Source: Clostridiales bacterium DTU089 (GTDB lineage: Bacteria > Bacillota > Clostridia > Oscillospirales > Acutalibacteraceae). Taken from it: DNA of 48,316 bases. The stretch's first letter is position 1; each line of letters opens with the position of its first letter. Where the stretch lies: NCBI GenBank assembly GCA_001513045.1, contig LFSB01000028.1, positions 1 to 48,316 on the forward strand, given 5' to 3'. The position numbers were made by a program, and so were the translations under genes. The notes below the pieces were generated by a model. It was given only the letters and a program-made list of their open reading frames with translations, had not been told where the DNA came from and made no database searches. This document shows positions 18,840 through 28,286 of this stretch, in pieces.

Positions 18840-18867
18840 CGGCACCGAAGCCGAAGCTCCGGTGCCG
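18840..18867 (-). terminator. Hairpin after the sigma factor fusion gene
   Basis: CGGCACCG pairs with CGGTGCCG, 20 bases past the stop. The tail on the minus strand is poor (CTTATATTC), so termination is uncertain. Confidence 0.5.
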
Positions 18868-18887: not shown

Positions 18888-21194
18888 TTAAGATGGCATA
18901 ATTTTTACAGCACTATCCATAAGCGAATCAAAGCTGCTTTTGCCCATTCCCGATATTGCATTATTGATATCGTCTTTAAGTTCAGTATTACCTTTATTTA
19001 CCATAATTCCAAGCCCCACATTGTTTTTATTGCCCTCAAAGACGCTTAACTCAAGTATAACCATATTAGAATACTCCGGGAGAATCGTTTGCGCAGTGCG
19101 TCTGTCTGTAAAAACAAAATCAACACTACCTGACGCAAGTTCTACAAACAAATACGAAGCGGCTGAGCAGGCATTTAACTGGATATTTCCAATATTAGAA
19201 TTGAAGCATCTGTCATAGCATGCGGTTCCTTCCTCTATGGCACAGATACCGGAGTCCAGCTCCGAAAGTTTTGTTGCAGAGGCAAATCGGCTGTTTTTTT
19301 GGGTTACACAAACGATGTCTGTATACGCATAGGGCTCTGCAAAATCAACCTGATTTGAAAGTGCTGTCGTTATCTGCTGTCCGGAAATAACAGCATCAAC
19401 CTTTCCGTTTTTTAGCGCCGGAACAAATGCCGCCCTATCAAGGCGTACTATTTCAAGCTTCCAACCGTTTGCTTCAGAGATTTTTTTTGCAATCATAACA
19501 TCGTAGCCATTTGCATATCTGTCTGTTCCGTTTATTTTTACAGCTCCGTTTGAAGCATCGGATTGCAGCCAGTTGTAGGGTGCATAGTTGCATTCCATAG
19601 CAACAGTAAATACTTCGTTCTCTACCTTGGTTATAACGGTAGTTCCTTCAACCGAGGCATTTTTATCCTGTGCGCCCTCTCTTGTTAAAAGTATCTCTTG
19701 ATAAATAAAGTTTTCAGCTTTTTTGTCATCTGCAACAAGCCTTATATGATCCTTATCAACAATTTCCGCGCGGACGGTGTAATGTTCATCAGTTTCCTTA
19801 TCAATGCCCTCGAAACAATAAGTTTCATGAAAAACAATTTTATCCTTTTTTATTTCATATTTTCCGCTTGAGTCATGTCCGCTGCGGGCGGGGTTATAAA
19901 GATTTCCATCTAAAATCATTTGACCTTCATCATTGTAAAAATTCCCAAAACACAGCGTTGCCTTTTCTGACGGAACGGTTCTCTCAATAAACGGTCCGCC
20001 CATATCGTACAGTTCATATTCCATGTTGCGGCCGAATTTTATGTTTCCCCATTCCAGCCCCTCACGGTCTTCTGATAGATTATACCAATACCATGTGCCT
20101 TCAAAAGAAATCCCCTCAAGGGTGAGCTCGGTTACCGGCTGCGTAGTATCGGAAACATCTGTTAAGCCCTCCTGTGTATTTCCGCCCACCGCCTGGGTTT
20201 CCGACAGGTTTGTGGTCGTTGTTGCTTCGCTTTTATTCTTCTTTACAACCGTTGCGCCCACGGCTGTTCCGGTTATCACAACAGCCGCCGCTGCGACTCC
20301 CGCTATTATTTTTGCGCCCACCGAGGCGAATATGCCCGCCTTTACGGCAGTTGCCCCTACAACAGCCGCACCTGTGCCGACTGCTCCCGCTGCACCTGCC
20401 GCTCCCGCTGCACCTGCACCTGCCGCCGCTGCGCCCGTACCTACTGCTCCTGCCGCGGGTACAACCGCCGAAGCGTATACCGCTGCCGCCTCTGCCGCCG
20501 CAAGTGCCGAAAACGATGCAACCGCCGGAGCTGTAACCGACTCCGCCGCGCCCTCCATAACAACAGGCAAGAACGGAAGCACACCGCGAAGACGGCAGCC
20601 CTTGCTCTCAAGCTCCTGCGCGTCCCTCTTCATTGATGCGCGAGCCTGAAACAGTCGGTTCTTTACCGCTCCCTCGGACACCCCTTCAAGCGCGGCTATG
20701 TCCGCTATGCTCAAATCCGCAAAATAAAACATCAGCACGCTTGAACGCTGCTTGTCGGGCAGTGCTTCAATCAGGCCGTTCACCGCCTCGCGCGTCTCGC
20801 TGTCCGCCACAGCCTGCGACGGGTCTGCCTGTCTTGCCGCCTCATCCTCGGCGTTGAGCGCGTCAAACTGTGTGCCGTCCGGATTTTCATCCGGCTCAAG
20901 CTCAAGCGTCTGCGGCTTCTTATTCCTTAAAAACGAGGTTGAACGATTGGACGCCGACATGAAAAGCCACCGTTCAAACGCCGCCGGCTCCTTGAGCGTG
21001 CCGAGATTTTTATACGCTCCGAAAAATATCTCCTGAGTGATATCCTCGGCGTCCTCCTTATTCCCGACATACTTCATGACGAACCAGCAAACCTTGCCGC
21101 CGTATATGCGATAAAGCTCTGAAAACGCCTCGTCGCTGCCGTTTTGCGCCATCTTCACAAGTGAGGTTACTGCGGAAATATCGTTTCTGTTCAT
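18888..21194 (-). CDS. ECF sigma factor fused to a membrane segment and an extracellular family-3 solute-binding domain
   Basis: One open frame of 768 residues. Residues 1-90 are sigma region 2 (EDAEDITQEIFFGAYKNL, then FERWLFMSASNRSTSFLRNK); 134-190 are sigma region 4 (LPDKQRSSVLMFYFADLSIADIAALEG, then SEGAVKNRLFQAR). Residues 215-285 are Ala/Gly-rich; 286-317 form one hydrophobic membrane segment followed by KKNK. After a Ser/Thr linker, a strand-rich domain (about 360-505) and a family-3 solute-binding domain (about 526-768; FTVAMECNYAPYNW, GYDVMIAKKI, GKVDAVISGQQIT, FAEPYAYTDIV) should lie outside. AAGGAG precedes the ATG. No anti-sigma gene is adjacent. The fusion suggests a membrane-held sigma that senses a ligand such as an amino acid; release mechanism and ligand are unknown. 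Confidence 0.9.
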   Translation of the reverse strand: MNRNDISAVTSLVKMAQNGSDEAFSELYRIYGGKVCWFVMKYVGNKEDAEDITQEIFFGAYKNLGTLKEPAAFERWLFMSASNRSTSFLRNKKPQTLELEPDENPDGTQFDALNAEDEAARQADPSQAVADSETREAVNGLIEALPDKQRSSVLMFYFADLSIADIAALEGVSEGAVKNRLFQARASMKRDAQELESKGCRLRGVLPFLPVVMEGAAESVTAPAVASFSALAAAEAAAVYASAVVPAAGAVGTGAAAAGAGAAGAAGAAGAVGTGAAVVGATAVKAGIFASVGAKIIAGVAAAAVVITGTAVGATVVKKNKSEATTTTNLSETQAVGGNTQEGLTDVSDTTQPVTELTLEGISFEGTWYWYNLSEDREGLEWGNIKFGRNMEYELYDMGGPFIERTVPSEKATLCFGNFYNDEGQMILDGNLYNPARSGHDSSGKYEIKKDKIVFHETYCFEGIDKETDEHYTVRAEIVDKDHIRLVADDKKAENFIYQEILLTREGAQDKNASVEGTTVITKVENEVFTVAMECNYAPYNWLQSDASNGAVKINGTDRYANGYDVMIAKKISEANGWKLEIVRLDRAAFVPALKNGKVDAVISGQQITTALSNQVDFAEPYAYTDIVCVTQKNSRFASATKLSELDSGICAIEEGTACYDRCFNSNIGNIQLNACSAASYLFVELASGSVDFVFTDRRTAQTILPEYSNMVILELSVFEGNKNNVGLGIMVNKGNTELKDDINNAISGMGKSSFDSLMDSAVKIMPS
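20383..20418 (-). repeat. 18-base tandem duplication in the Ala/Gly linker codons
   Basis: Two adjacent copies of the unit gctcccgctgcacctgcc, the second with one change, lie inside a longer stretch of similar units. They encode the repeated AGAAGA-type linker of the sigma fusion. Such a repeat can change length by slippage in 18-base, frame-preserving steps. Confidence 0.7.
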
Positions 21195-21241
21195 AATAAA
21201 TCTCCTTTTCGTCTGTGTTTTTTCGGGCTTACACTACCAAA

Positions 21242-21267
21242 GACGCAAAATCCGGAAAAAGGTTTGA
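21242..21267 (-). promoter_or_regulatory. Candidate ECF-type (autoregulatory) promoter of the sigma fusion gene
   Basis: On the minus strand TCAAAC (21262-21267), a 16-base spacer and CGTC (21242-21245) match the AAAC-N16-CGTC layout of SigW/SigM-type ECF promoters. They stand 48 bases before the start codon. No good sigma-A promoter is seen in the same stretch. ECF genes are often self-activated; this is inferred here. Confidence 0.5.
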
Positions 21268-22989: not shown

Positions 22990-25731
22990 ATGAAAAAGCT
23001 TTTATCTTTTGTCATCACATGCTTGCTTGTGCTGTCGGTGATTTCTCCCGCGGCGGCAGGCATTGCCATGCCGGTTGCCGCACCGATAAGCGCGGCGGAA
23101 TTTGCCAGGCTGTGCACAAGCCTTGCCTCGGAATATGACGGAGATTTGAAATCCGTCTACGAGAGTACAAGAAGCACTGTAGGCGTACAGGCATACTCAG
23201 CCGATGCAGCCTCACAGGATGACACGGCTTCGTCCGATGCCGATTTTGCATTGAAAAGGCTGATACTCAGAGCTGACGGAGCGGTAAACTCCATGGGCGC
23301 CGTTGCCGGAGTTGAGGGCTTTGAAAATGTGCATATCTTCCAGTATGCCACGGTTTCCGATGCAAAAGCAGCGTATGAATACTATAAAAAACTCGGAGCA
23401 ACGCAATGTGTTGCTCCCGACAAGATAATATCACTCGAAAAAACCACTGAAAACTTCGGTGCACAGGTGAAGGCTGCTGCAGCTCCGGTGCTTTCGGACG
23501 GCCATCTCTCATGGGGCTCCGCTCTGTGCGGCTTTGACATTGCAAACACTTATATATCCGGCAGCCTGACTCCGGCTGAGGTCATAGTTGCGATTGTTGA
23601 CTCCGGGGTTGAGGAAACCCATGAATTCTTTGCAGGCAGGATAATTCCCAGCACACACAATTACAGCTCCACAGGCACCGCCGACAGTGCAAAGGACGAC
23701 AACGGACACGGCACACATGTTGCCGGAATCATTGTTGACAACACCACGGCAAATGTAAAGGTCAAGGGCTATAAGGTTCTCGACTCAAGCGGCTACGGCA
23801 CAATCTCCGCTCTCTGCTCCGGCATAGCTGCGGCAACAGCCGACAGAGTTGATGTAATAAACCTCAGCCTGTCGGATGACAGTGTAGAAAGCCCGGTCGA
23901 CGGATTTATCGAATCCGCCCTAAAAAGCGGTATCTGCGTAACCGCCGCCTCAGGCAACGAGTCCGCCAACGCCGACCTTCTCACACCCGCACGAATCGCG
24001 GACGTAATCACCGTTGCGGCATGCAACTCGTTCAATGCCGTTACAACCTTTTCAAACTACGGAAACTGCGTCGACATTGCCGCACCGGGTAAGGAGATAG
24101 TAAGCACATATCTCAACAACTCCTACGCCTCACTCGACGGCACCTCCATGGCGACACCGTTTGTCTCTGCCGCCGCCGCGGTGATGCGCTGTGTGTCTCC
24201 CGATATTTCACCCTATGACATTCAGGCAAGGCTCAAGGACAGCGCAAACGCCCTTGACAATCCCGCAAGACTCAGCTATGCCGGAAGCGGTGTGCTGTGC
24301 GTCTATGACGCGCTGGACACTGACAGGCTCCCCTCTCCCGTGTTGAGTATCAACAGCGGAACCTTTACCGGCGCAATAAAGGTGAGCATGTCCTGCGCGG
24401 ACGCAAACGCGAAAATATATTATTCAACCGATGGCAGCATACCCACCCCAAGCACCGGCAAGCTGTATACGGCTCCGGTAACTGTTTCAGATTACACAAA
24501 GCTTTCCGCCGCCGCTTTTTCTGCGGACAGCTTTCCGAGCAGACACGTCACCGCGTTCTACAGAATACTGAATTACGCTCCCGACAGTGCGCTTGAAATA
24601 AACTCAGCCGGTGTAATAACCGAATACAGCGGCTCATTCCGGGATATAATTATACGTGACACCGTAAAAGGCATAAAGGTCACCGGCGTCGCATCCTCGG
24701 CATTCGGAGAGTCCGAAATCATGGGAATCTCTCTGCCAGAGGGAGTCACGGCAATACCCGAATACGGCTTCTACATGGCACAGAGACTGCGCTATGTCAA
24801 TGCTCCCGGTGTACTTTCAATCGGAAATTCCGCCTTCTACTCCGATATAAACCTGCGTGAAATAAATGCGCCTAAGGTTACGGCAATTCAGAAGCTGGCA
24901 TTCTACAACTGCGTAAGCCTTTCGCAGGTCATTTTTGACAAGCTTACCTCCGTCGGCTCAAACGCCTTCGGCAAGACTGTACGCCTTTCCTACGCTTCTT
25001 TTGCGTCTCTTGAAACCGTAACCGGCTCGGTGCTTGAAGACTCGGGTATAGAAAAAATCAATTTGCCCGCGGCAAAGGTTGTAGAACGCAACGCCTTCAA
25101 CGGCTGCAATTTCCTTGAATATCTTGATTTGCCGAGTGTAACCGAGGTCAAGCGCGGCGTATTCAACGGCACGGTCTTAAAGCGCGTGGATTTCAGCAGC
25201 ATAGTGACACTCAACGACATCCCCTCAAACGGAGCAACGCTGGCACTTCCGTCAAGCTACAAATCCTGCGGAGTTGTATCCCTCGGCAAGGGCTTCACCG
25301 TATACGGCACGCAAAACACTCAGGCTCAGAAATGGGCATCAAACAATTCGCATACCTTTAAAACAGCTCCCGCCATACTTGTAAATCTCCCCGCCGAAAC
25401 CGTTGAGGGCGAAACGATTTGCGTTGACGCTATAGGCTTTAACCGCACATATCAGTGGTACTCCTACAGCTCTGACAATCCCGCGGATGCATCGCCGATA
25501 GCAGGGGCAACCGGAAGCTCATTCACCGTTCCGCACGGAGGAGCTAAAAATTACTACTGCGTAATAAAAAGCACTGACGGAGCAAACATAAAAACCCTTA
25601 CATCCTCAACCTGTGTAAACGAAAACTACATCGCACACGGCGAAACCTCTCCTCTGACAATTATCGATATGATAATCATGCTTATGCTTCGTTTTGCAAG
25701 GTTGGCAATGGTTGCCGCGGAGAAAGTTTGA
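22990..25731 (+). CDS. Secreted subtilisin-like serine protease with chitobiase-like, BspA-type LRR and Ig-like domains
   Basis: The protein has 913 residues. A signal peptide (1-24) is followed by a propeptide-like region, then an S8 peptidase domain (about 190-430) with the triad D203 (AIVDSGVEETHE), H240 (DDNGHGTHVAG) and S386 (LDGTSMATPF). Residues 445-520 resemble a chitobiase C-terminal domain (AKIYYSTDGSIPTPSTGKLY). Residues 560-790 are BspA-type leucine-rich repeats (SIGNSAFYSDINLREI and similar). An Ig-like part follows (TYQWYSY, NYYCVIKS), then a hydrophobic tail (IIDMIIMLML) that could anchor it. It is likely displayed on the surface to cut or bind proteins. Its start codon lies six bases after the transporter stop. 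Confidence 0.9.
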   Translation: MKKLLSFVITCLLVLSVISPAAAGIAMPVAAPISAAEFARLCTSLASEYDGDLKSVYESTRSTVGVQAYSADAASQDDTASSDADFALKRLILRADGAVNSMGAVAGVEGFENVHIFQYATVSDAKAAYEYYKKLGATQCVAPDKIISLEKTTENFGAQVKAAAAPVLSDGHLSWGSALCGFDIANTYISGSLTPAEVIVAIVDSGVEETHEFFAGRIIPSTHNYSSTGTADSAKDDNGHGTHVAGIIVDNTTANVKVKGYKVLDSSGYGTISALCSGIAAATADRVDVINLSLSDDSVESPVDGFIESALKSGICVTAASGNESANADLLTPARIADVITVAACNSFNAVTTFSNYGNCVDIAAPGKEIVSTYLNNSYASLDGTSMATPFVSAAAAVMRCVSPDISPYDIQARLKDSANALDNPARLSYAGSGVLCVYDALDTDRLPSPVLSINSGTFTGAIKVSMSCADANAKIYYSTDGSIPTPSTGKLYTAPVTVSDYTKLSAAAFSADSFPSRHVTAFYRILNYAPDSALEINSAGVITEYSGSFRDIIIRDTVKGIKVTGVASSAFGESEIMGISLPEGVTAIPEYGFYMAQRLRYVNAPGVLSIGNSAFYSDINLREINAPKVTAIQKLAFYNCVSLSQVIFDKLTSVGSNAFGKTVRLSYASFASLETVTGSVLEDSGIEKINLPAAKVVERNAFNGCNFLEYLDLPSVTEVKRGVFNGTVLKRVDFSSIVTLNDIPSNGATLALPSSYKSCGVVSLGKGFTVYGTQNTQAQKWASNNSHTFKTAPAILVNLPAETVEGETICVDAIGFNRTYQWYSYSSDNPADASPIAGATGSSFTVPHGGAKNYYCVIKSTDGANIKTLTSSTCVNENYIAHGETSPLTIIDMIIMLMLRFARLAMVAAEKV

Positions 25732-26501: not shown

Positions 26502-28286
26502 ATGGATCCTATCAAGGTTGATTTTACAGGCAAAGGCAAGTCAAAAGAGCTGCTTATCCCTCCGGAGAGAGCCGGACTTAAAATCGTTATCAACATTGTG
26601 ATAACGGTAATTGTTGCGATAGTTGCATACTATATGCTTCTGCCGGCAATGAATCCGAGAGCGCTCGAGTTTTATTATTACTTCGGAATAATTCTCGCGG
26701 CGTATGTGGTAAGCGCGTTCATCACCTCAAAGGCGTTTGCCAAGCCCGAATACATGCCCTATGTCAAAAAGCAGGCGACGGTTCCGATTATAATCGCACT
26801 TGCGCTTGCCGTTCTGCTCGGTGTAGGATATCTGACCTCCTGCGTGGTGTTCAGAGCCAAGGCCTTCAGCCGTATAATTTCCGAGCAGCCCATCGCTTCA
26901 ACAAACTTTGACGAGCTTGACCTTATTGATTCGCTTGATGATTTCAGCAAGGTTCCGCTCATAGACAAAACCGTTGCGGAGGCACTTGCCGACAAAACCC
27001 TCGGCGACCTTTTCTCCTCCACGGCAGATACGGAAAACCTTGTTTCGCAGTTTGTTGTTGATGACCTGCATTCCTCGCAGATAAACTACAAAACCGCGCC
27101 CACAAGAGTATTCCCTCTCAAGTACGGTGATTTCTTCAAGTGGTTCAAGAACCGCGCGGACGGTCTTCCGGGATATATAACGGTTGATATGTATACTCAG
27201 GAAGCAAACATGGTGAGAAAAGAAGGCTCGGCAGTGAAATATTCTCCCGCCGAGTACTTTAACCGCAAGCTCATCCGTCATCTTCGCTTTGCATATCCGA
27301 CAACCATGTTCGGTACAACCTCGTTTGAAATCAACGAGGAAGGCCAGCCCTACTGGATTTGCGAGGTAATCGACAAGACCGTCGGACTTATCGGCGGTGA
27401 CGATGTTGTCGGTGTTGTGCTCGTAAACGCTTATGACGGAACCTGCACCAAGTATTCTCTTGAGGATATCAAGAAGGATGCCTCCCTCAAATGGGTGGAC
27501 CAGGTGTTTGACGCGGCGCTGCTTAACACGCAGTACAACTACTACGGAAAGTATGCCAACGGCTTTATCAACTCCATCATAGGTCAGGAAAACGTTAAAA
27601 TCACAACCACAGGCAGCAATTTCCTCGCAATTAACGATGACGTATATATGTACACCGGCGTCACCTCAATATCCAACGACCAGTCGATAATCGGCTTCAT
27701 CCTTATAAACCAGCGCACGAAGGACGCCAAGTTCTACCCCGTCAGCGGTGCTACCGAGGAGGCCGCTCAGACCTCCGCAAAGGGCAGCGTTCAGGACATG
27801 GGCTGGGATGCAACCTTCCCGCTGCTTCTCAACGTGGGCGGAGAGCCGACCTACTTTATGGCGTACACCTCAGGCGGAGTCGTCAAGGGCTATTCGATGG
27901 TCAATGTCAGCCAGTACGCAATCGTTGCGAAGAGCAACAACTCCCCGAACCTTGTCGAGTGCCTGCAGTCGTATGAAAATCTCCTCGGCAAGAGTCTGAA
28001 CATCAACTATTCAGTCAATGTTGACATTCCCAATGCTCAAACCCCTGAAACCCCCGCAATTCAGACTGCAAGCGTAACCGGAATAATCGCAGATATACGC
28101 ACCGCAGTAATCGGCGGCAACTCAATGTACTATATCAAAATTGATAACAAGTACTATTCAATATCCGCCTCCGCCGCACAGAATGTTGTAATTTTCAATG
28201 TCGGCGACACCGTAAAGGTAACCTTTGCCGAATCGTCAGCGAGCATCATCCCCGCTGTAAACATTGAACTTTCGGCGGCACAGTAA
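26502..28286 (+). CDS. Conserved-looking membrane protein with large extracytoplasmic domain, function unknown
   Basis: I cannot name this 594-residue protein. Three hydrophobic segments lie at about 26-48, 56-78 and 96-118. The remaining ~470 residues are hydrophilic and probably outside the membrane. They hold Tyr- and Gly-rich strand patterns (YPTTMFGTTSFEINEEGQPYW, QYNYYGKYANGFIN, FYPVSGATEEAAQ), and the last 90 residues (GIIADIRTAVIGGNSMYYIKIDNKYYSI) look like a small beta barrel. The ATG follows AAGGAG. It is a single-gene unit with its own promoter and strong terminator. No catalytic motif is visible, so a structural or envelope role is only a guess. Confidence 0.8.
   Translation: MDPIKVDFTGKGKSKELLIPPERAGLKIVINIVITVIVAIVAYYMLLPAMNPRALEFYYYFGIILAAYVVSAFITSKAFAKPEYMPYVKKQATVPIIIALALAVLLGVGYLTSCVVFRAKAFSRIISEQPIASTNFDELDLIDSLDDFSKVPLIDKTVAEALADKTLGDLFSSTADTENLVSQFVVDDLHSSQINYKTAPTRVFPLKYGDFFKWFKNRADGLPGYITVDMYTQEANMVRKEGSAVKYSPAEYFNRKLIRHLRFAYPTTMFGTTSFEINEEGQPYWICEVIDKTVGLIGGDDVVGVVLVNAYDGTCTKYSLEDIKKDASLKWVDQVFDAALLNTQYNYYGKYANGFINSIIGQENVKITTTGSNFLAINDDVYMYTGVTSISNDQSIIGFILINQRTKDAKFYPVSGATEEAAQTSAKGSVQDMGWDATFPLLLNVGGEPTYFMAYTSGGVVKGYSMVNVSQYAIVAKSNNSPNLVECLQSYENLLGKSLNINYSVNVDIPNAQTPETPAIQTASVTGIIADIRTAVIGGNSMYYIKIDNKYYSISASAAQNVVIFNVGDTVKVTFAESSASIIPAVNIELSAAQ

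Follow-up and report, generated by a model that had tools for sequence, protein, structure and literature searches.

The locus described here raises the question of how a sigma factor can be governed when no separate anti-sigma protein accompanies it and a solute-binding protein (SBP) domain is attached to it in the same chain. The gene lies on contig LFSB01000028.1 of Clostridiales bacterium DTU089 (assembly GCA_001513045.1), of which positions 1 to 48,316 were analysed and are called the window below; the assembly comprises 59 contigs and 2.45 Mb. The gene occupies positions 18888-21194 of the minus strand and runs from ATG to TAA over 768 amino acids (aa) with zero internal stops. An earlier account made from the letters of the DNA, the sequence-only reading, had described one uninterrupted frame holding regions 2 and 4 of an extracytoplasmic function (ECF) sigma factor, an Ala/Gly linker, one membrane segment, a strand-rich domain and a complete-looking family-3 SBP domain. 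Frame reading, Pfam searches, hydropathy and structural modelling confirmed this description (Table 1). The same account was silent on the minus strand and on a step in codon composition within the gene, which is treated below.

Three Pfam families matched the protein above their cut-offs, namely Sigma70_r2, Sigma70_r4_2 and SBP_bac_3, the last over residues 556-753 with 71.7 bits for a cut-off of 26.4. The general ECF model TIGR02937 covered residues 22-190 (97.5 bits, cut-off 42.9) and sigma region 3 gave no Pfam match at E-values up to 1, so that the protein has the ECF arrangement of regions 2 and 4 without region 3. SigW was nearest to the sigma half, both among models in a profile search and among structures. 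Hydropathy revealed one hydrophobic segment, at about residues 288-314, and none beyond it. In a model of residues 1-345 the sigma regions were predicted with high confidence, as measured by the predicted local distance difference test (pLDDT), and the linker was disordered. The middle domain, about 175 residues between approximately 345 and 520, was drawn at pLDDT 26-60; it had no Pfam match over the cut-off and no credible relative across 300 family genomes or in the collected loci. The single weak match to it, at locus L198, was rejected because the frame concerned is non-coding and runs antisense to other genes. No zinc-finger, FecR-type or other anti-sigma Pfam domain was matched in the protein.

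Table 1. Features of the fusion gene and its flanks (window coordinates; pLDDT from the predicted structure)
Feature	Residues	Coordinates	Strand	Basis or remark
Whole gene, ECF sigma factor - membrane segment - middle domain - family-3 SBP		18888..21194	minus	single 768-aa frame and Pfam
Sigma region 2	27-93	20916..21116	minus	Pfam Sigma70_r2, 1.6e-12; pLDDT >90
Sigma region 4	137-188	20631..20786	minus	Pfam Sigma70_r4_2, 4.6e-14; pLDDT >90
Segment after sigma region 4, candidate self-inhibitory part	199-243	20466..20600	minus	model and class conservation
Ala/Gly-rich flexible linker	246-286	20337..20459	minus	sequence; pLDDT <50 over most; imperfect repeats
Membrane segment with class-conserved K295 and G309	287-318	20241..20336	minus	hydropathy
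Strand-rich middle domain	345-520	19635..20162	minus	relatives none detected; low-confidence model
Family-3 solute-binding domain with altered pocket	526-768	18891..19619	minus	Pfam 6.3e-20; model and fold match
Putative ECF-type promoter, AAAC-C-N15-CGTCTT (AAC-N16-CGTC)		21240..21265	minus	first base of AAC 70 nt before ATG
Intrinsic-terminator-like stem		18840..18867	minus	12 pairs, 9 GC, T-rich tail; just 3' of stop codon

The N-terminal half of the protein turned out to be common. Sigma matches were chosen for long frames (400 to 1300 aa in the family search), covering 60 of the 65 listed family-search regions and later 39 from order and class relatives; because of this choice, the fraction of ECF factors that are fusions is left unestimated. 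The resulting class of sigma - single membrane segment - outer domain proteins counts 105 members, of which two belong to the own genome (the window protein and one further protein), 61 come from family relatives and 42 from order and class genomes. Three fusions were excluded, L175 as truncated and L182:5725-7935 and L173:109-2328 as weak. Sigma70_r4_2 was matched in all 105 and Sigma70_r2 in 97 (56 of the 63 from the same genome and family, 41 of the other 42). At the threshold used, a second membrane-like peak after the first was seen in none. The median start of the membrane segment is residue 278, and the linker is about 40-90 residues long. The window protein agrees with the class at 33 of the 37 positions that are conserved (at least 65%) in the N-terminal part, 26 of 30 when residues 1-190 are taken. 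It carries the single membrane segment together with K295, G309, G199, L202 and P207.

What varies in the class is the outer part. LRR_5, a leucine-rich repeat (LRR) family, was found in 22 of the 63 and in 4 of the 42; Big_2 and SH3_3 each occurred once in the first set and twice in the second, and WG repeats (3/42) and DUF3298 (1/42) were matched in the second. Many outer parts had no Pfam match, and an SBP was present in the window protein alone. In RsiV, an anti-sigma factor that is described as activated by intramembrane proteolysis, DUF3298 is the domain that senses lysozyme. From sigma part to membrane segment, the window protein shares 41% identity with a protein (G202) whose outer part is LRR-like. 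This identity and the variety of outer Pfam domains therefore indicate that, as judged from the sequences, one chassis of sigma part, linker and membrane segment is combined with interchangeable outer domains.

The class also offered some observations in their own right. The second member in the same genome, L130:1141-2562 on the plus strand, is a 473-aa protein in which sigma part, membrane segment, Thr-rich spacer and SH3_3 follow each other; its region 4 match is just at the cut-off and none was reported for region 2. In relatives, the sigma fusions often stand in tandem or divergent pairs or two or three in a row (L182, L160, L169, L142/L152, L140/L147). One 278-aa member, L180:5468-6304 on the minus strand, ends about 12 residues past the membrane segment and is practically devoid of an outer domain.

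The exact combination found in the window is rare. The fusion protein was searched in 22 genus, 398 family, 394 order and 391 class genomes, drawn with overlap, at E-value cut-offs of 1e-3, 1e-20, 1e-18 and 1e-18, respectively. A search of the genome contigs (genome_contigs) gave 62 loci, of which 60 were inspected first and the remaining two, L070 and L071, were covered in a recount of 276 loci. No second sigma-SBP chain appeared among the matches from the four groups of genomes or at the 62 loci, and in the recount sigma and SBP shared one frame solely in copies of the window gene. Long SBP frames of relatives, 518-704 aa, gave no sigma match, the ones read being either SBP-permease fusions or simply open frames. 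As the searches had E-value cut-offs and sampled part of the larger groups, they establish rarity rather than uniqueness. A sigma-SBP fusion was not described in the literature searched, which was covered in part. Thus, recurrence of the domain order, a point raised by the sequence-only reading, holds for the general order of sigma factor, membrane segment and outer domain, with 104 other proteins, and fails for the exact sigma-SBP order.

The SBP domain was modelled at pLDDT mostly 82-96 with two weaker spots, and its best solved match was 4ymx, with a template modelling (TM) score of 0.83 by target length; the matches are amino-acid-binding proteins. The family-3 fold is complete, as had been supposed, and the pocket is altered. 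When 95 SBP relatives were compared over the 43 columns that are at least 90% conserved, the fusion SBP departed at 10, as against a median of 1 and a maximum of 9 in the relatives; the two most divergent of these, with 9 and 8 departures, are distant transporter SBPs. Four residues that are invariant in all 95 relatives are replaced (W587 to R, R612 to L, Q654 to E and Q666 to S), and residue 607 is Q where 87 relatives have S and 8 have T. From the structures of GlnBP and LAO, position 612 is presumably the carboxylate-holding Arg, 587 the aromatic wall, 607 the Ser/Thr facing the amino group and 654 a contact of lobe 2. Asp697 and most fold positions are kept.

The sequence-only reading had suggested an amino acid or similar small molecule as the outside ligand. 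The amino-acid part of this suggestion is not borne out since the family-3 residues that grip the amino acid, including the carboxylate-gripping Arg, are replaced; R587, L612, E654, S666 and Q607 now stand in their positions. We therefore dropped an amino-acid receptor as the default reading and regard an ordinary amino acid held in the ordinary way as an unlikely ligand. What remains supported of that proposal is that one chain joins a membrane segment and a sensor-like outer domain to an ECF sigma factor that looks intact. Among the 96 branches of the SBP tree, none is longer than that of the fusion SBP (0.92, against a median of 0.116). Given this branch and the pocket changes, the domain was probably borrowed from the SBP family of ATP-binding cassette (ABC) transporters and then changed fast. 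The closest SBP in the same genome, C59, is 50% identical over residues 515-767 and has a permease gene beside it; the nearest SBPs in named records belong to rumen and gut 'Ruminiclostridium sp.' and related metagenome-assembled genomes. Free SBPs begin with a lipoprotein signal, according to the inspection of 60 of the 62 genome_contigs loci.

Between the sigma factor and the linker lies a segment that is likely a built-in inhibitor of the sigma part. Two helices are predicted in it, at 206-218 and 228-243, with pLDDT 80-92 over the blocks spanning 191-240. In the 74 of the 105 class members that were aligned for modelling, G199 and L202 are each conserved in 58 and P207 in 54, and residues 205, 206, 208, 209, 212 and 213 are each hydrophobic in at least 93%. 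The modelled pose of sigma regions 2 and 4 resembled anti-sigma-bound structures, with TM scores of 0.72-0.74 for SigW-RsiW (5wuq/5wur) and 0.71 for CnrH-CnrY, and was far from sigma factors bound to RNA polymerase (6jbq, 0.43; 5zx2, 0.37). Within the membrane segment, the same alignment retains K295, at its edge, in 71 of 74 proteins, and G309 and G313, inside it, in 59 and 47.

An ECF-like promoter sequence precedes the gene, its AAC-N16-CGTC lying in AAACCTTTTTCCGGATTTTGCGTCTT on the minus strand. AAC at -35 and CGTC at -10 are the form of ECF promoters, by a consensus from Bacillus ECF factors. A looser motif, AAC.{16,18}GTC[TC][TA], was picked after viewing the upstream regions of 63 class genes. 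It occurs in 17 of them, for a mean of 1.10 and a maximum of 5 over 200 shuffled sets. Because the motif had been chosen on these 63, it was then applied to the 42 held-out genes, where it was found in 7, compared with a mean of 0.81 and a maximum of 5 over 500 shuffled sets. Two further patterns applied to the same genes occurred in 8 and 6. The stricter, published-style AACN16-17CGTC was present in 4 of 63, not significant alone (shuffle mean 1.08, maximum 5). Within the own genome, AACCTTN12-14CGTCTW (AACCTTN{12,14}CGTCTW) has a single copy, at the fusion gene promoter. The pattern AAACCTTTTN{10,11}CGTC matches twice, once at this promoter and once within a large frame that is presumably purine-synthesis-like (PurL-like), named from its sequence. 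GAACYTTTTN{10,12}YGTCTWW has 0 sites there.

At the other end of the gene, the stem that follows the stop codon is the longest of four terminator-like sites in the region, where 3.5 are expected, and suggests a single-gene unit. Taken with the promoter, the fusion gene is probably a single-gene, autoregulated unit. The neighbours are an FGGY kinase, an MGS-like protein, an MFS_2 transporter and a subtilase-LRR protein. An operon with the FGGY kinase is not favoured because a strong terminator separates the two genes. The domain scan of the neighbours found no adjacent anti-sigma gene, in agreement with what had been stated from the sequence, and no ABC gene among those scanned.

From these data we tentatively propose, at slightly less than an even chance, a one-protein transmembrane device: a self-inhibited, membrane-held and autoregulated ECF sigma factor that would be freed by regulated proteolysis. 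The sigma factor would be cytoplasmic, at the end of the flexible Ala/Gly linker leading into one membrane helix, with the middle domain and the SBP outside. At rest, the helical segment after sigma region 4, as a stand-in for an anti-sigma factor, would together with the tethering keep the sigma part off RNA polymerase. The signal at the outer part would not be a standard amino acid bound in the standard way; it may be another ligand, or the docking of a surface or wall component. It would open the chain to cleavage on the outside, followed by a second cut that a site-2 protease of the RseP type would make within the glycine-bearing helix of the membrane segment. Once released, the sigma factor would activate its own AAACC-N15-CGTC promoter plus further targets. 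This proposal is favoured by the domain matches and by the N-terminal design common to 105 proteins with swapped outer domains, one of them bearing DUF3298 and all of them with a single membrane-like peak. It is also favoured by the conservation and confident modelling of the segment after sigma region 4 and the SigW-like pose, by the Lys and the Gly that the class retains at the edge and in the interior of the membrane helix, by the missing adjacent anti-sigma gene, by the M50 site-2 proteases that the own genome encodes, and by the promoter motif in the held-out genes and its single copy, AACCTTN12-14CGTCTW, in the genome.

Several observations weigh against it. The exact sigma-SBP combination comes from a single assembly. 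The closed pose might be shared by an ordinary ECF factor lacking the extension, and other anti-sigma-bound sigma factors scored no better than some polymerase-bound ones (1or7, sigmaE-RseA, 0.50-0.53; AlgU-MucA, 0.46-0.47; RpoE-ChrR, 0.39-0.42). The predicted structure draws the membrane helix at 292-313 with pLDDT below 50. The charge bias around the segment is weak, with a mean of 2.3 Lys plus Arg before and 1.8 after it in the 105 proteins, and the fusion protein itself has the opposite trend (2 before, 3 after). The loose promoter motif is missing from most class genes (46/63 and 35/42) and is present upstream of 14 of 166 neighbouring control genes (Fisher p 8e-4 against the 17/63 of the class), and motif searches of the own genome gave no target beyond the fusion gene itself. 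Flanking charges were rejected as uninformative for topology. Some of the 14 neighbours of sigma fusions that carry the motif (among L137-L196) may be targets.

A few comparable systems help to situate the protein. SigW-RsiW and SigV-RsiV resemble it in that its sigma part is nearest to SigW and that one class member bears DUF3298, the RsiV sensor domain; in these systems the sensor sits on a separate anti-sigma protein, whereas here sensor and sigma factor share one chain. SBP-sensor kinases are of the BvgS type. An example in the same genome is a 1101-aa hybrid histidine kinase (L270:2290-5595, plus strand) with two SBP_bac_3 units, HisKA, HATPase and two receivers. Such kinases likewise link a family-3 SBP outside to gene control, with phosphotransfer as output in place of the sigma factor itself. 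The SBPs of amino-acid ABC transporters, such as C59, have the same fold and form the closest sequence family; unlike them, the fusion SBP is not secreted alone, is not beside ABC genes and has its pocket residues replaced.

The closest known systems are IutY and the ECF52 protein SCO4117. IutY of Pseudomonas putida (ECF243) is an ECF sigma factor fused to a membrane anti-sigma factor and activated by proteolysis, being cut by Prc and RseP (PMC8999054, PMC7593790). As in the window protein, a single chain contains the sigma factor, the membrane segment and an outer part, and there is no separate anti-sigma factor. IutY differs in working in a Gram-negative bacterium, in having a TonB-dependent siderophore receptor as partner and in carrying an anti-sigma part of the cell-surface-signalling type; the window protein has an SBP as its outer part and no detected FecR-type or other anti-sigma Pfam domain. 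SCO4117 of Streptomyces coelicolor also unites sigma factor, membrane region and an outer domain of ligand-binding type, there a carbohydrate-binding module, and its excision from the membrane has been proposed (PMC5826349). ECF52 proteins contain a zinc-finger (ZAS) anti-sigma domain and are described as exclusive to Actinobacteria (PMC5826349), whereas the window protein has no zinc-finger match, an SBP instead of the carbohydrate-binding module, and Clostridia-type relatives. ECF262 (Ruminococcus albus) and ECF288 (Blautia producta) are listed as groups with regulatory extensions of unstudied mechanism (PMC8999054 Table 2). Like our class, they are Clostridia sigma factors with an extension, and the class may belong to them.

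Whether proteolysis is required at all can be questioned. The sigma factor could act uncut, in the manner of ToxR or CadC, if a shift in conformation or clustering of the outer part let it bind RNA polymerase at the membrane. The linker, about 40-90 residues long in the class and modelled at pLDDT below 50, would give the necessary reach, and a site-1 protease site is not readable from the sequence. We nevertheless consider such tethered action unlikely, as the membrane-linked ECF systems with evidence (IutY, and the truncation of SCO4117) point to proteolysis (PMC8999054, PMC5826349) and the class-conserved, glycine-bearing membrane helix fits intramembrane cutting. As to the signal, the fusion SBP has either acquired a new ligand or lost small-molecule binding, as suggested by its residues. 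That it is a genuine receptor whose pocket was remodelled for a ligand other than an ordinary amino acid is a possibility we entertain with some doubt: the fold is intact, with 33 of the 43 conserved columns kept while pocket positions changed, and a sugar kinase and a sugar transporter adjoin the gene. The long branch, though, also fits relaxed constraint, and the sugar genes are in a separate transcript, judged by terminator and promoters. The loss of the four invariant residues and of S607, along with that same branch, would also suit a domain that binds no small molecule, being a module for protein or wall contact or decaying after fusion; elsewhere in the class the outer domains are modules of the contact type (LRR, SH3, immunoglobulin-like). 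This view too is plausible while falling well short of probable, since the open frame spans the full domain, the fold is predicted with confidence, and Asp697 and most of the fold are retained.

It could finally be argued that the gene is an assembly artefact in which two unrelated genes were joined in frame. The presence of the fusion in one assembly agrees with this, as does the repetitive Ala/Gly linker, the type of place prone to misjoins. The GC content at third codon positions (GC3) falls from 0.67 in sigma regions 2 and 4 to 0.39 in the linker, 0.40 in spacer and middle domain and 0.37 in the SBP; this step from sigma to outer part is the largest of the 102 of 105 fusions measured (outer part of at least 80 aa). 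Six other genes of the window have GC3 values of 0.56-0.61. However, composition is normal again directly after the fusion gene, the kinase just downstream having 0.61, so that a single misjoin fails as an explanation. Rather, a low-GC island with normal edges fits better with recent acquisition of the outer half, which the composition itself suggests. Moreover, the low-GC3 side carries the K295/G309 membrane signature of the class, whereas free SBPs lack it and start with a lipoprotein signal; therefore even a chimera would join two class members. The identity of only 50% to the best SBP elsewhere in the same genome also speaks against an artefact. Taken together, we regard a chimera as quite improbable.

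A few membrane-linked ECF sigma factors (IutY, ECF52) were already known; the novelty lies in an SBP as the sensor, in its altered pocket, and in how broad the class is and what its members have in common. The class presents one design with many outer domains across Clostridia-type genomes. It may be, though we hold this just short of evenly balanced, that Clostridia-type gut bacteria use a large class of single-pass, self-inhibited 'receptor sigma factors' with freely exchanged outer domains, by which transcription would be wired to surface signals without anti-sigma factors or kinases, and that one of these captured a transporter SBP and retuned its amino-acid pocket to a different signal. 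Since the class recurs, sigma control without anti-sigma proteins, and surface sensing by this route, are open to testing. As the bi-lobed binding mechanism of SBPs is well understood, a single purified protein could serve to measure the ligand, the change of conformation and the release of sigma together. A swappable unit of one gene, leading from sensor to promoter, would also be of use as a laboratory part.

Two further genes of the window deserve mention. At 22990-25731 on the plus strand lies a secreted-looking subtilase with Fn3-associated and BspA-type LRR_5 repeats, LRR_5 being the commonest outer repeat in the sigma class. At 26502-28286, also on the plus strand, a 594-aa frame had no Pfam match at an E-value of 1e-5.

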